Part shown: positions 6,439 to 15,784 of the stretch, piece by piece | Numbering within the stretch: position 1 is the first letter of the stretch | Layout of the letters: every line of letters starts with the position of its first letter | DNA from: Nitrosomonadaceae bacterium | GTDB lineage: Bacteria; Pseudomonadota; Gammaproteobacteria; Burkholderiales; Nitrosomonadaceae | Direction of reading: 5' to 3' | NCBI GenBank assembly: GCA_014190895.1 | Contig: BJGV01000009.1 | Span: 1-51,807, forward strand | DNA length: 51,807 bases | Notes under the pieces: generated by a model | What the model was told of the DNA's origin: nothing | What the model saw: the letters and a program-made list of their open reading frames with translations, nothing else | Databases searched by the model: none | Made by a program: the position numbers and the translations under genes

Positions 6439-8343
6439 ATGAAACGTAAAGCAGAGCTTCTCAATTATCCGCGTCAATTATATTATTTCCAACAGCGACT
6501 CGGCATCAGTGTCGGATTTATAGTACTGTTATTTCTTTTGCTCCTCGCTCGTTTCTGCTATTTACAAATATGGCAATACGAGCATTACCAAACTCTGGCA
6601 GAAAAAAATCGCATATCTGTCCTCCCAATCTTGCCTAATCGGGGATTAATTTTTGATCGCAATGGAGAAATATTAGCCGCTAATTATCCGGCGTACACGC
6701 TAGAAATTATACCGAGCAAGACTATCGATCTTGAAAATACTATTAACAAATTAGCCTCTATAATTAATATAGAGATAAAAGATCGAAAGTATTTTAATAA
6801 ATTGGTGAAGGAGAACGGAGGGCTTGAAAGTTTACCTATTCGCGCTCGTTTGTCCAGTGCTGAGGTGGCACGTTTTTCTGCTAACCACTATCTCTTTCCT
6901 GAAGTAGATCTTAGAGCACGTTTATTTCGTCAATACCCAAGAGGAGATGCTGCCTCACACGCAATAGGCTATATTGGCCGCATTAATGATAAGGATTTAA
7001 AAAAATTAGAAATTAATGAGGAGTTAGCTAATTACCGTGGTTCACAACATATAGGGAAAATTGGTATTGAGCAAAGTTATGAGAAAGAGCTACATGGCAT
7101 AACCGGTCTTGAGAAGATAGAAACTAACTCAATTGGTCGATCCATAAGAACCATATCACGCACCCCACCAATCTCAGGCAATAATCTAACGCTGACATTA
7201 GATATTAAATTACAAGAAGTAGCAGAAAAAGCATTCGGAAATAGACGGGGTGCGTTGGTGGCGCTTGATCCCAATAACGGAGAGGTGCTTGCGTTTGTCA
7301 GCAGACCTGGGTTTGATCCCAATCTCTTTGTTAATGGCATCGATCTGGATAGTTGGAATTTGCTCAATAACTCAACGGACAGGCCGCTCAATAACCGTGC
7401 TTTAAGTGGCTTATATCCGCCCGGATCGACTTTCAAACCATTTATGGCACTGGCTGGTCTTGAGCTCAAGCAACGTACGCCCGAGCACACCATAAGGGAT
7501 TTGGGATACTTTAGTTTACCTGGGAGCACGCATCGTTTCCGAGATTGGAAGGTCGGGGGACATGGGGACGTAAACATACATAAGTCGCTAGTTATCTCAT
7601 GTGATACTTATTACTATGGACTTGCTAATGATCTTGGTATAGACAGTATTCATGATTTTATCAGTCAATTTGGGTTAGGGAAGAAAACAGGAATTGACAT
7701 TGAGGGAGAGGCTGCTGGTCTATTGCCCTCAAAAGAATGGAAAATGAAGCAATATAAGAAAAAGTGGTACGTTGGCGATACTATTTCCGTTGGTGTTGGA
7801 CAAGGATACAACCTCACTACACCTTTGCAATTGGCCTTCGCTACTACGATACTTGCCAGTCAAGGAAAAGCTTTCCGACCCCGATTTTTGAAGAAGATCC
7901 AAGATAGTAGTACCGGTAAGATATACAAAAGTGTGGCACAACCACTATACACCCTCAATTTTGAACCAAATAATTTTAAGTGGATTAAAGATGCATTAAT
8001 AGATGTGACTCAGCCTGGAGGCACCGCTGCTATTGCGGGCGCCAATGCTGCCTATACTTTTGCCGGTAAGACCGGCACGTCACAGGTGGTTGGTATGAAA
8101 CAAGGTGAAAAATATAATGAGAGTAAAGTGAAAGAGCATCACCGCGATCACGCCTTGTTTATTTCTTACGCGCCGGCAGAAAAACCAAGCATCGTGTTAT
8201 CTGTATTAGTAGAAAATGGCGGACACGGCGGCTCTTCTGCTGCACCAATTGCGCGCCAGATAATGGATTACTTTTTACTTGGTAAGCTACCTGTGGAAGA
8301 GGCAACAAGAATCGTGGACGAGGAGGAAGGTACGCATGATTAG
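6439..8343 (+). CDS. mrdA: Penicillin-binding protein 2 (elongasome transpeptidase)
   Basis: Class B PBP that cross-links peptidoglycan during side-wall growth, anchored by one N-terminal membrane segment (about residues 23-42). It has a pedestal domain and a C-terminal transpeptidase domain. The active-site motifs are intact: S330-x-x-K (PPGSTFKP), S387-C-D389 and K544-T-G (AGKTGTSQ). The positions and the 634-residue length match E. coli PBP2 almost exactly. Its stop overlaps the rodA start by 8 bases. The normal KTG here contrasts with the altered motif in FtsI. Confidence 0.97.
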   Translation: MKRKAELLNYPRQLYYFQQRLGISVGFIVLLFLLLLARFCYLQIWQYEHYQTLAEKNRISVLPILPNRGLIFDRNGEILAANYPAYTLEIIPSKTIDLENTINKLASIINIEIKDRKYFNKLVKENGGLESLPIRARLSSAEVARFSANHYLFPEVDLRARLFRQYPRGDAASHAIGYIGRINDKDLKKLEINEELANYRGSQHIGKIGIEQSYEKELHGITGLEKIETNSIGRSIRTISRTPPISGNNLTLTLDIKLQEVAEKAFGNRRGALVALDPNNGEVLAFVSRPGFDPNLFVNGIDLDSWNLLNNSTDRPLNNRALSGLYPPGSTFKPFMALAGLELKQRTPEHTIRDLGYFSLPGSTHRFRDWKVGGHGDVNIHKSLVISCDTYYYGLANDLGIDSIHDFISQFGLGKKTGIDIEGEAAGLLPSKEWKMKQYKKKWYVGDTISVGVGQGYNLTTPLQLAFATTILASQGKAFRPRFLKKIQDSSTGKIYKSVAQPLYTLNFEPNNFKWIKDALIDVTQPGGTAAIAGANAAYTFAGKTGTSQVVGMKQGEKYNESKVKEHHRDHALFISYAPAEKPSIVLSVLVENGGHGGSSAAPIARQIMDYFLLGKLPVEEATRIVDEEEGTHD

Positions 8344-12207: not shown

Positions 12208-12513
12208 ATGACTAGACTAAATATTTTTTTGATTTTAATTATGATTGTTTGTGGATTAAGTATTGTGACTTCACAGCACAGGGCGCGTAAACTTTTTTCG
12301 GAACTAGAAGAGGAGCAAAAATTAGCAGAACAACTAACAATAGAGTGGGGGAAATTACAACTTGAACAAAGCACCTGGGCTATGCGTTCGCGCGTTGAAA
12401 GGATTGCTACCAAACATTTATTAATGAGAGTGCCAGATGCACCATATATTCAGACCATCTCATTAATTGATCATCATAATTTAACCGTTCTTGGAAAAAA
12501 ACTAGATCCATGA
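12208..12513 (+). CDS. ftsL: Cell division protein FtsL
   Basis: Small bitopic divisome protein that works with FtsQ and FtsB to activate FtsW-FtsI. It has 101 residues: a short cytoplasmic N-terminus, one membrane segment (about 5-22), a coiled-coil stretch rich in Glu/Lys (about 30-60) and the typical C-terminal VERIATKHLLMRVPDA. Its TGA overlaps the ftsI ATG (ATGA). Sequence conservation in this family is low, but the position and architecture are decisive. Confidence 0.93.
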   Translation: MTRLNIFLILIMIVCGLSIVTSQHRARKLFSELEEEQKLAEQLTIEWGKLQLEQSTWAMRSRVERIATKHLLMRVPDAPYIQTISLIDHHNLTVLGKKLDP

Positions 12514-14234
12514 CACAAAATCTAGAATCCCATATTGTTTTACCAGCATGGCGCTCACGTATGCTGTATGGATTATTGATACTAAGTTTAATTGGGTTAG
12601 TAGGGCGAGCTTTTTATTTACAGGGTATACATAAGGATTTTTTGCAACAAAAAGGTAGTTCCCGTTACAGTCGTGTACTAGAAATGGGTACGCAGAGGGG
12701 AATGATCACGGATCGACATGGAGAACCGCTTGCAATTAGTACGCCGGTAGATTCAGTGAAGGCAAATCCACGAAAGATTAATGCAACACCCGAGCAATTG
12801 AAGAAATTAGCAGATTTAATAGAGACTAATGTCCCTGATATAAAAAAGAATCTTAATAGTCGGCAACGTGATTTTGTGTACCTTAAAAGACACGTTTCAC
12901 CCGATGTAGCAAAAAAGATAATCCAACTTGCTATACCAGGTATATCTCTTGTAAGGGATTTTCGTCGTTATTATCCAACAGGCGAACAAACATCACACAT
13001 GCTCGGTTTCACAGATCTGGATGACAATGGACAAGAGGGAATAGAACTGGCATTGCAAAAAACACTTGCAGGTGGGGTTGGTAGTCGTCGTATTATTTGG
13101 GATAGGCGTCATCGCGTTATCGAGGGCGTTGGAAACGTAAACGAACCTACGCCAGGAAAAAACATAGCGTTATCAATTGATAGTAAGATCCAATACTTGG
13201 CCTATCGTGAGTTGAAACAGGCTATTGAGGTTAATCAAGCTAAGGCCGGCGGGATTGTAGTGCTGGATACACAGACTGGCGAAGTATTGGCATTGGTTAA
13301 TCTTCCTACTTATAATCCTAACAATCGAATGAGAGCAAAAGGTGGCAGGGCCCGTAATAGGTCGGTAATAGATACATTTGAGCCAGGGTCAACTCTCAAA
13401 CCGTTTACCGTAGCGGCGGCTCTTGAGGCGCGTAAAGTGACACCTAACATGGAGTTCCAGACGGCGCCTGGTACTCTCACCATAGGCAATAGAACGATAC
13501 ATGATACCCATAATTATGGGCGCGTGACGGTAGAACAAGTAATTCAAAAATCTAGCAATGTAGGTGCTGCAAAAATTGCCTTGTTGTTATCTCCACAAAC
13601 ACAATGGGAAACTTTGAGTGGCTCCGGTTTTGGCGCATCCACTGGGTCAAAATTCCCCGGGGAGGCTAACGGCACACTTCATCCATTTAAGAAATGGGGG
13701 CAGATAGAGCAAGCCACCATATCTTATGGCTATGGTATTTCAGTGAGTCTTTTGCAGCTAGCCCGAGCTTATACTTTATTCTCTTCAGAGGGGTATTTGA
13801 AATCAGTGTCGCTATTGAAAATTGATGCACCAGTAGAGGGAAAACAGGTAATTTCACGGGATACAGCTCTTGCTGTAAGCAAAATGCTAGAGATGGTGGT
13901 GGGACGTGAAGGCACTGCACAGCTTGCGCAAATCAATGGATATAGAGTGGCAGGAAAAACTGCTACTACACATAAAACTGAGGGTCGTGGTTACTCAAAG
14001 AATCGTTATACCGCAACATTTGTTGGCTATGCCCCAGCTTCTAATCCACGTTTAATTGTTGCAGTAATGCTGGATGAGCCCTCAGCCGGCCAACATTTTG
14101 GGGGTCAGGTAGCCGCACCTATTTTCAGTCGTGTGATGGGGCGTGCTTTGGAGATTCTGAATATACCGCACGATACACCCATTAAAAATATGTCGTTATT
14201 GCCAATAACACTAAACCCCAAAGGCGATGTGTGA
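12510..14234 (+). CDS. ftsI: Peptidoglycan D,D-transpeptidase FtsI (PBP3), with altered KTG motif
   Basis: Class B PBP that cross-links septal peptidoglycan; one N-terminal membrane segment (about residues 20-38), a pedestal domain and a transpeptidase domain. The serine motif S294-x-x-K297 (PGSTLKP) and S348-S349-N350 are intact. The third motif reads K483-T484-A485 (AGKTATTHK) instead of the nearly universal KTG; the codon is GCT at 13962-13964. The length (574) is normal and the rest of the domain, such as FVGYAPASNPRLIVAVM, is conserved. ATGA overlap with ftsL and a GTGA overlap with murE. Confidence 0.96.
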   Translation: MTQNLESHIVLPAWRSRMLYGLLILSLIGLVGRAFYLQGIHKDFLQQKGSSRYSRVLEMGTQRGMITDRHGEPLAISTPVDSVKANPRKINATPEQLKKLADLIETNVPDIKKNLNSRQRDFVYLKRHVSPDVAKKIIQLAIPGISLVRDFRRYYPTGEQTSHMLGFTDLDDNGQEGIELALQKTLAGGVGSRRIIWDRRHRVIEGVGNVNEPTPGKNIALSIDSKIQYLAYRELKQAIEVNQAKAGGIVVLDTQTGEVLALVNLPTYNPNNRMRAKGGRARNRSVIDTFEPGSTLKPFTVAAALEARKVTPNMEFQTAPGTLTIGNRTIHDTHNYGRVTVEQVIQKSSNVGAAKIALLLSPQTQWETLSGSGFGASTGSKFPGEANGTLHPFKKWGQIEQATISYGYGISVSLLQLARAYTLFSSEGYLKSVSLLKIDAPVEGKQVISRDTALAVSKMLEMVVGREGTAQLAQINGYRVAGKTATTHKTEGRGYSKNRYTATFVGYAPASNPRLIVAVMLDEPSAGQHFGGQVAAPIFSRVMGRALEILNIPHDTPIKNMSLLPITLNPKGDV

Positions 14235-15784
14235 ATTTAGAATCTAAAGAACGACCAAGAATCCAAGCGGACTTACGTGCCATCAGTTGTCTTAGCGTCA
14301 TTATTAACAATCTTACTACAGATAGTCGTAGGATAAAACCAGGGGACACATTTCTTGCTTATGCTGGACAGAAATACGATGCTCGTCAATTCATTTCTGA
14401 AGCTATTGCAGCGGGAGCAAATGCAGTGTTGTGGGAACGTCATGGTTTTGCATGGAATCCGGCATGGAAGATACCTAATTTGCCGATAACTCAATTGCGA
14501 GTCAAAGCAGGACTTCTTGCTAGTTATATATATGACTATCCGTCAAAGCAATTAAATCTTATAGGGATTACAGGAACCAACGGCAAAACCTCATGCAGTC
14601 ACTGGATAGCCGAAACGCTAACTGCTTTAGGAAAAAAAACCGCAGTCATTGGTACATTAGGAGATGGTTTTTTAGGTACATTGCAACCCAGCTCTAATAC
14701 CACACCAGATCCTATTTTGTTACAGCAGAAAATAGTCGACTATCTAAAACTTGGTGCCAAGTACGTGGCGATGGAAGTGTCATCACATGGGATAGAACAA
14801 GGACGAATTCATGGCTCTACATTTACGACAGCCCTGCTGACTAATCTGTCACACGATCACCTTGATTATCATGGCAGTATGGAAGCATACGCTAAAATAA
14901 AAGCACGGTTGTTTAAATGGCCCGGTCTCAAGTGCGCCGTGCTTAATCTAGATGAGAAATTTGGTGAGACACTGCTAAAAAAACTTATAGACAAAGATGT
15001 AAAAGTTGTTGGATACGGATTTAAAAAACCAAAAATTAAAAATCTAAATTTTAAAAAATTTAGATTAGTGTGCGGGCATAATCTTAAGGTAAGTAATCAT
15101 GGTCTAGAGTTTGATGTAGAGTTTGGGACCGAGTGTGTAAAGTTTGAGACCCGTTTATTAGGTAGATTTAATGCTTCAAATTTATTGGCAGTACTGGCCA
15201 CTTTGTTAACCAATGAGATCAAATTAACTGATGCTGTGCTGGCGTTGCAGCAAGTTCATCCAGTGATGGGGAGAATGCAAAGATTAGGTGGCGGCAATCA
15301 TCCAGTAGTGATAGTAGATTATGCTCATACCCCAGATGCTCTAGAAAGAGTGTTAATGACGTTACGTGAAATCTCTCTCAGCCTCGATCCCTTGTTAAAA
15401 ACTAAAACTCAAGATTCAAAATTAATCTGTGTATTTGGTTGCGGTGGTGAGCGTGATAAAAGTAAACGCCCCCTCATGGGCGGAGTAGCCACAAGGCTAG
15501 CAGATAGGGTCATTGTTACTAGTGATAATCCGCGCGGTGAAAATCCATTTACCATTATCCATGAAATCCTAGAGGGCGTATATAAAGACAATTATTATGT
15601 AGAAGCAGATCGGGCATCAGCAATTTATCTGGCGATACAAGGCGCGTGTAAAGATGATGTAGTGTTGGTTGCCGGTAAAGGACATGAAGAGTATCAGGAA
15701 ATCAGCGGACAAAAGCACCCCTTTAACGATGTGAAGCTCGTGCAACAAATACTCCAAAGCTCGATAATCGGAGTGAAGGTATAG
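14231..15784 (+). CDS. murE: UDP-MurNAc-tripeptide synthetase, meso-diaminopimelate-adding
   Basis: Cytoplasmic Mur ligase that adds the third amino acid to UDP-MurNAc-L-Ala-D-Glu. The P-loop GITGTNGKT (residues 112-120) and the substrate motif D432-N-P-R435 indicate the meso-DAP-specific type. The GTG start overlaps the ftsI stop. At 517 residues it is slightly long. Residues near 270-280 are encoded by a perfect 11-bp inverted repeat (15041-15066), and a second small Lys-rich expansion, LLKTKTQDSK, precedes VFGCGGERD. Confidence 0.97.
   Translation: MNLESKERPRIQADLRAISCLSVIINNLTTDSRRIKPGDTFLAYAGQKYDARQFISEAIAAGANAVLWERHGFAWNPAWKIPNLPITQLRVKAGLLASYIYDYPSKQLNLIGITGTNGKTSCSHWIAETLTALGKKTAVIGTLGDGFLGTLQPSSNTTPDPILLQQKIVDYLKLGAKYVAMEVSSHGIEQGRIHGSTFTTALLTNLSHDHLDYHGSMEAYAKIKARLFKWPGLKCAVLNLDEKFGETLLKKLIDKDVKVVGYGFKKPKIKNLNFKKFRLVCGHNLKVSNHGLEFDVEFGTECVKFETRLLGRFNASNLLAVLATLLTNEIKLTDAVLALQQVHPVMGRMQRLGGGNHPVVIVDYAHTPDALERVLMTLREISLSLDPLLKTKTQDSKLICVFGCGGERDKSKRPLMGGVATRLADRVIVTSDNPRGENPFTIIHEILEGVYKDNYYVEADRASAIYLAIQGACKDDVVLVAGKGHEEYQEISGQKHPFNDVKLVQQILQSSIIGVKV

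Follow-up and report, generated by a model that had tools for sequence, protein, structure and literature searches.

The septal transpeptidase gene and its third motif

The glycine of the K(T/S)G motif is regarded as a fixed element of the penicillin-binding protein (PBP) active site. The ftsI gene of a Nitrosomonadaceae bacterium (GCA_014190895.1, contig BJGV01000009.1) raises the question of whether a septal transpeptidase can carry another residue at this position and still function, as the motif in its translation reads KTA. The gene lies in a window of 51,807 nucleotides, which is the whole stretch of DNA analysed here, and the features that bear on the question are given in Table 1.

Table 1. 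Positions of FtsI, its motifs and associated genes in the window
Feature	Coordinates	Strand	Remarks
Upstream ORF in ftsL position	12208..12513	+	Overlaps ftsI start; tblastn matches in relatives
ftsI, class B penicillin-binding protein, predicted septal peptidoglycan D,D-transpeptidase (PBP3)	12510..14234	+	574 aa ORF
SxxK motif, S294-T-L-K297	13389..13400	+	S and K in 169/169 rows
SxN motif, S348-S349-N350	13551..13559	+	S, S and N each in 169/169 rows
Third motif, K483-T484-A485 instead of KTG/KSG	13956..13964	+	Codons AAA ACT GCT
T487, two residues past the third motif	13968..13970	+	Ala in 147/169 rows, Thr in 3
murE (presumed)	14231..15784	+	Downstream, overlaps ftsI stop; tblastn matches in relatives
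PBP2/MrdA, elongation class B PBP	6439..8343	+	Normal KTG; TIGR03423 above cut-off

A preliminary description of this locus had reported KTA as the third motif of FtsI, intact SxxK and SSN motifs in the same protein and an ordinary KTG in the PBP2 of the window. The codons and coordinates given for the first are right, the second is upheld by translation and alignment, and the PBP2 frame does encode KTG; the K(T/S)G motif of a septal class B PBP is absent from FtsI, which has KTA in its place. A shift or indel in the alignment mimicking a motif change was ruled out, as the flanks align without gaps (GYRVAGKT-A-TTHK against GYRVAGKT-G-TTHK; L025/L026).

The ftsI frame is open over its full length and is overlapped by both neighboring ORFs, and full-length ORFs were listed throughout the surrounding cluster. 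The upstream ORF, which we take to be ftsL, and the downstream ORF, presumably murE, place the gene in a division and cell wall cluster whose members are matched in relatives, their names being assigned from general knowledge. FtsI has a PBP_dimer domain at residues 62–205 (PF03717, 71.7 bits) followed by a Transpeptidase domain at residues 247–543 (PF00905, 252.2 bits), each scoring above its cut-off. The NCBIfam FtsI model NF011685, which is of the subfamily kind, gave 465.6 bits, its cut-off being 737, with the window protein the only one scored, and the best-scoring NCBIfam model was that of Neisseria gonorrhoeae PBP2 (penA), at 538.6 bits and below its cut-off of 1105. In the FtsI tree the window protein clusters with six FtsI proteins of the same genus (support 100/96); the closest relative, also of this genus, is 70% identical and has KTG. 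The window protein resembles the FtsI/PBP3 proteins of its genus and family in length, in domain order, in the SxxK and SxN motifs, in the K-T of the third motif and in its place between an ftsL-like ORF and murE, but differs from them in having alanine where they have glycine. The name FtsI was retained on this orthology, and its function as an enzyme is predicted from sequence.

Conservation of the motif glycine

The preliminary description had called the third motif almost always KTG or KSG, and the conservation found here is stricter than that. In a joint alignment of 169 rows, made up of FtsI-type proteins from the order and the wider phylum, position 485 is glycine in all 168 other proteins (162 KTG and 6 KSG) and alanine in the window protein alone. 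Residues S294, K297, S348, S349, N350 and K483 are invariant across the same rows, and position 484 is threonine or serine. An alignment of FtsI from relatives had been proposed as a check on whether KTA is common, and it is not, occurring in 0 of the 168 other aligned proteins. The observation holds, and the motif is rarer than first described.

The alignment draws on a sample of relatives and a sample of the phylum. From 60 related genomes, 59 yielded FtsI, and the other, G001, an assembly rated 72% complete, gave only PBP2-type and weaker matches; together with the FtsI of a Methylotenera (L034) these made 60 proteins, KTG in every one. The phylum sample consisted of 120 genomes (119 besides the one studied), and the best match of 109 was taken into the alignment, 103 with KTG and 6 with KSG, one entry repeating G010. 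Seven FtsI-type proteins outside the alignment have KTG as well (7/7), comprising those of six genomes read by motif search (G439, G442, G461, G475, G497 and G508) and a second FtsI-like copy in G460. Genomes G503 and G532, whose contigs end before the motif, and G471 and G518, with PBP2-like matches only, were left out. The genus is represented by eight genomes including the one studied, and the six relatives with FtsI all have KTG, G001 being the one without FtsI.

A sequence pattern containing KTA matched in 2 of the 399 genomes of the order, once in the FtsI studied here and once in a frame of G392 (L065) that was judged by eye not to be FtsI, being a frame without PBP motifs. The KTG form of the pattern matched in 273 of the 399 genomes, the studied genome not among them, and genomes without a match to either form are uninformative. 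A second genome of the same species was not found. A literature search for a natural KTA PBP or an altered KTG glycine, in which most articles were judged on less than their full texts, turned up none; "KTA" brought up a single article, PMC8147781, whose main text does not contain the motif.

Consensus error or real substitution

The main rival to a real change is an error of the consensus or a minority allele, by which base 13963 would have been called C where the true codon is GGT and the enzyme would be wholly ordinary. GCT is one base from GGT, a codon that relatives use at this position: in a codon alignment of the 60 relatives, codon 485 is GGC in 31, GGT in 17, GGA in 9 and GGG in 3. 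The unbroken run of glycine in the other 168 rows also speaks for an error, as does the isolation of the departure in a protein with no other column of at least 95% conservation altered, and findings chosen for their oddness would tend to favor errors. The codons flanking 485, on the other hand, resemble those of the genus, and the genome is estimated to be 99.97% complete with a contamination of 0 and has full-length ORFs in the cluster, values of which neither bears on a single base. We regard such an error as a serious possibility that nevertheless falls short of probable, in which case the locus would stand as a caution on single-residue findings in draft genomes. A real change is put somewhat above even, the functional and the neutral readings of it, both discussed below, overlapping with one another.

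Integrity of the remaining protein

At columns conserved in at least 95% of the 169 rows the window protein departs once, at 485 (median 0, maximum 5), and at least one such departure is found in 63 of the 169 rows. The protein keeps 16 of 17 conserved glycine columns, 485 being the sole loss. A pseudogene or general decay was ruled out by the full open frame and by the lack of any other alteration at the columns of at least 95% conservation.

In the 61-row alignment, 485 is the only column in which the window protein is the sole exception to an otherwise uniform residue. Lone departures of this kind are not unusual in themselves, 15 of the 61 rows having at least one, and none besides that of the window touches the three motifs. 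Across the 169 rows there are six lone departures spread over five rows; the one in the window is the only one within a motif, and another, T486S in L191, adjoins the motif. When the count is confined to 30 family rows, the window FtsI accounts for 15 of 45 lone departures; the corresponding shares of this genome are 7/38 for MurE and 2/26 for RsmH, the latter counted over 29 rows. The columns of the 14 lone departures besides 485 all vary across the 169 rows, and nothing among them stands out as a compensating co-change; K381 is the only one of the 14 to have a residue found at its position in no other of the 169 rows. Compared with its three nearest relatives, the transpeptidase domain has a pN of 0.144–0.150, far lower than its pS of 0.67–0.75, the latter near saturation.

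Divergence of the lineage

The end branches leading to the window are 0.405 in FtsI, 0.405 in MurE, 0.429 in PBP2 and 0.252 in RsmH, lengths that depend on which relatives are in the tree. Measured as the mean path to the family outgroup, the FtsI of this genome (0.715) exceeds the six other rows of the genus (0.347–0.616). The corresponding MurE path is 0.766, with three genus rows longer (0.898–0.947), and that of RsmH is 0.502, with three of the five genus rows longer (0.531–0.590). Rapid evolution throughout the lineage is only partly borne out as the full explanation, the FtsI path being the longest in the genus but those of MurE and RsmH not. By these measures several genes of the lineage have diverged, with FtsI perhaps a little more diverged, and the extra divergence of FtsI could mean relaxed constraint or adaptation.

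A neutral substitution would fit the length of the end branches that the lineage has for FtsI, MurE and PBP2. This is the functional reading in a milder version, with alanine tolerated without measurable effect and the glycine merely frozen elsewhere. Alanine is also small and suits a beta strand. The presence of glycine in 168/168 homologues argues instead for selection against alanine, and so does a table of representative superfamily structures in the available part of PMC12073871, where by our own count the third motif position is glycine in 25 of 25 rows and the lysine and threonine are not always kept. A neutral change is considered unlikely.

Other cell wall enzymes of the genome

A search of the genome with PF00905 gave three proteins. 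One is FtsI, and the other two, PBP2 and a protein of class A-like size, both have KTG. In the nearly complete genome this search brought up no other septal class B PBP, nor a second FtsI copy that would free the FtsI of the window. The genome has one YkuD-domain protein, and a PF00144 search of it gave no match. Two matches above cut-off to PF13354 (Beta-lactamase2), at C18:15880–16323 and C1:205620–206033 (L196 and L197), may be low-molecular-weight PBPs, not beta-lactamases. At 1.32 Mb in 25 contigs, the genome is among the smaller ones of its family, in which sizes are 1.0–2.0 Mb within the same genus and 1.0–3.7 Mb in the rest, several of these genomes being incomplete.

The class A-like PBP and the YkuD-domain protein, both encoded elsewhere in the genome, would leave room for an FtsI that has lost its transpeptidase activity and is kept for a structural role in the divisome, with cross-linking carried out by the class A-like PBP or by an L,D-transpeptidase. 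The alteration of an invariant motif residue and the large share of lone departures among the 30 family rows (15/45) point the same way. In pseudoenzymes, however, more than one motif residue tends to be lost, and here Ser294, Lys297, SSN and K483/T484 are all kept and the other columns of at least 95% conservation are without departure. We consider the loss of activity very improbable.

Our preference leans to a single-copy, functional FtsI/PBP3 that carries alanine in place of the third-motif glycine, a residue otherwise invariant, as judged from the conservation described above. This enzyme would still cross-link septal peptidoglycan, because FtsI is conserved and no replacement enzyme was found. 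Weighing against it, the invariance of the site across 168 homologues and the superfamily table leads one to expect that the glycine is needed, which makes a natural alanine unlikely a priori; the nearest relative, at 70% identity, has KTG, and the search gave no other genome of the species; and the gene looks somewhat freer than MurE and RsmH, both in lone departures and in the path to the outgroup. That this is a natural septal transpeptidase working with KTA, where glycine is otherwise fixed in every FtsI compared and in the table as found in the available part of PMC12073871, seems evenly poised.

Possible effects on the active site

Related enzymes suggest how the substitution might act. 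In gonococcal PBP2, the beta-3 strand bearing KTG twists and thereby forms the oxyanion hole, as described in the accessible portion of PMC8503634; its KTG is at residues 497–499, with the glycine kept where the window FtsI has alanine. The sections of PMC12073871 at hand describe the oxyanion hole of CTX-M-14 as formed by two backbone N atoms, those of the nucleophile and of the residue following KTG, and report a contact between the Calpha of the motif glycine and the main-chain O of the residue two positions N-terminal to the nucleophile. Class A beta-lactamases have the same superfamily motif in a different enzyme, K234-T/S235-G236, compared here by motif only, and Gly236 is counted among their invariable residues in the part of PMC12777564 available.

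By analogy with these structures, the extra methyl group on strand beta-3 of the window FtsI, near the main chain that precedes the nucleophile, would alter the ease with which the strand twists, the Cbeta at 485 being expected to press on the equivalent of the glycine-Calpha contact or to restrict the twist. An altered twist would in turn affect the oxyanion hole, here putatively the backbone N of S294 and of T486, and could raise or lower acylation by beta-lactams, by the D-Ala-D-Ala substrate or by the two together. These structures make it plausible that acylation or the affinity for beta-lactams would be affected, as the preliminary description had proposed. An AlphaFold2 model of the window FtsI with one homologue had a mean pLDDT of 36.4, too low for use. 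If the functional reading is true, the oxyanion-hole strand would be freer than thought, with alanine in the only septal enzyme found, and the protein would offer a natural test of the need for glycine in transpeptidation, in beta-lactam acylation or in both, and of whether the two can be separated.

Near the motif, residue A501 of gonococcal PBP2, two residues past KTG, corresponds to T487 of the window FtsI by counting from the motif, and substitutions of A501 alter reactivity with cephalosporins and penicillin according to the accessible text of PMC5187516. The threonine is shared by the window protein and two relatives of the same genus, both of which have KTG, and T487 is thus not tied to Ala485.
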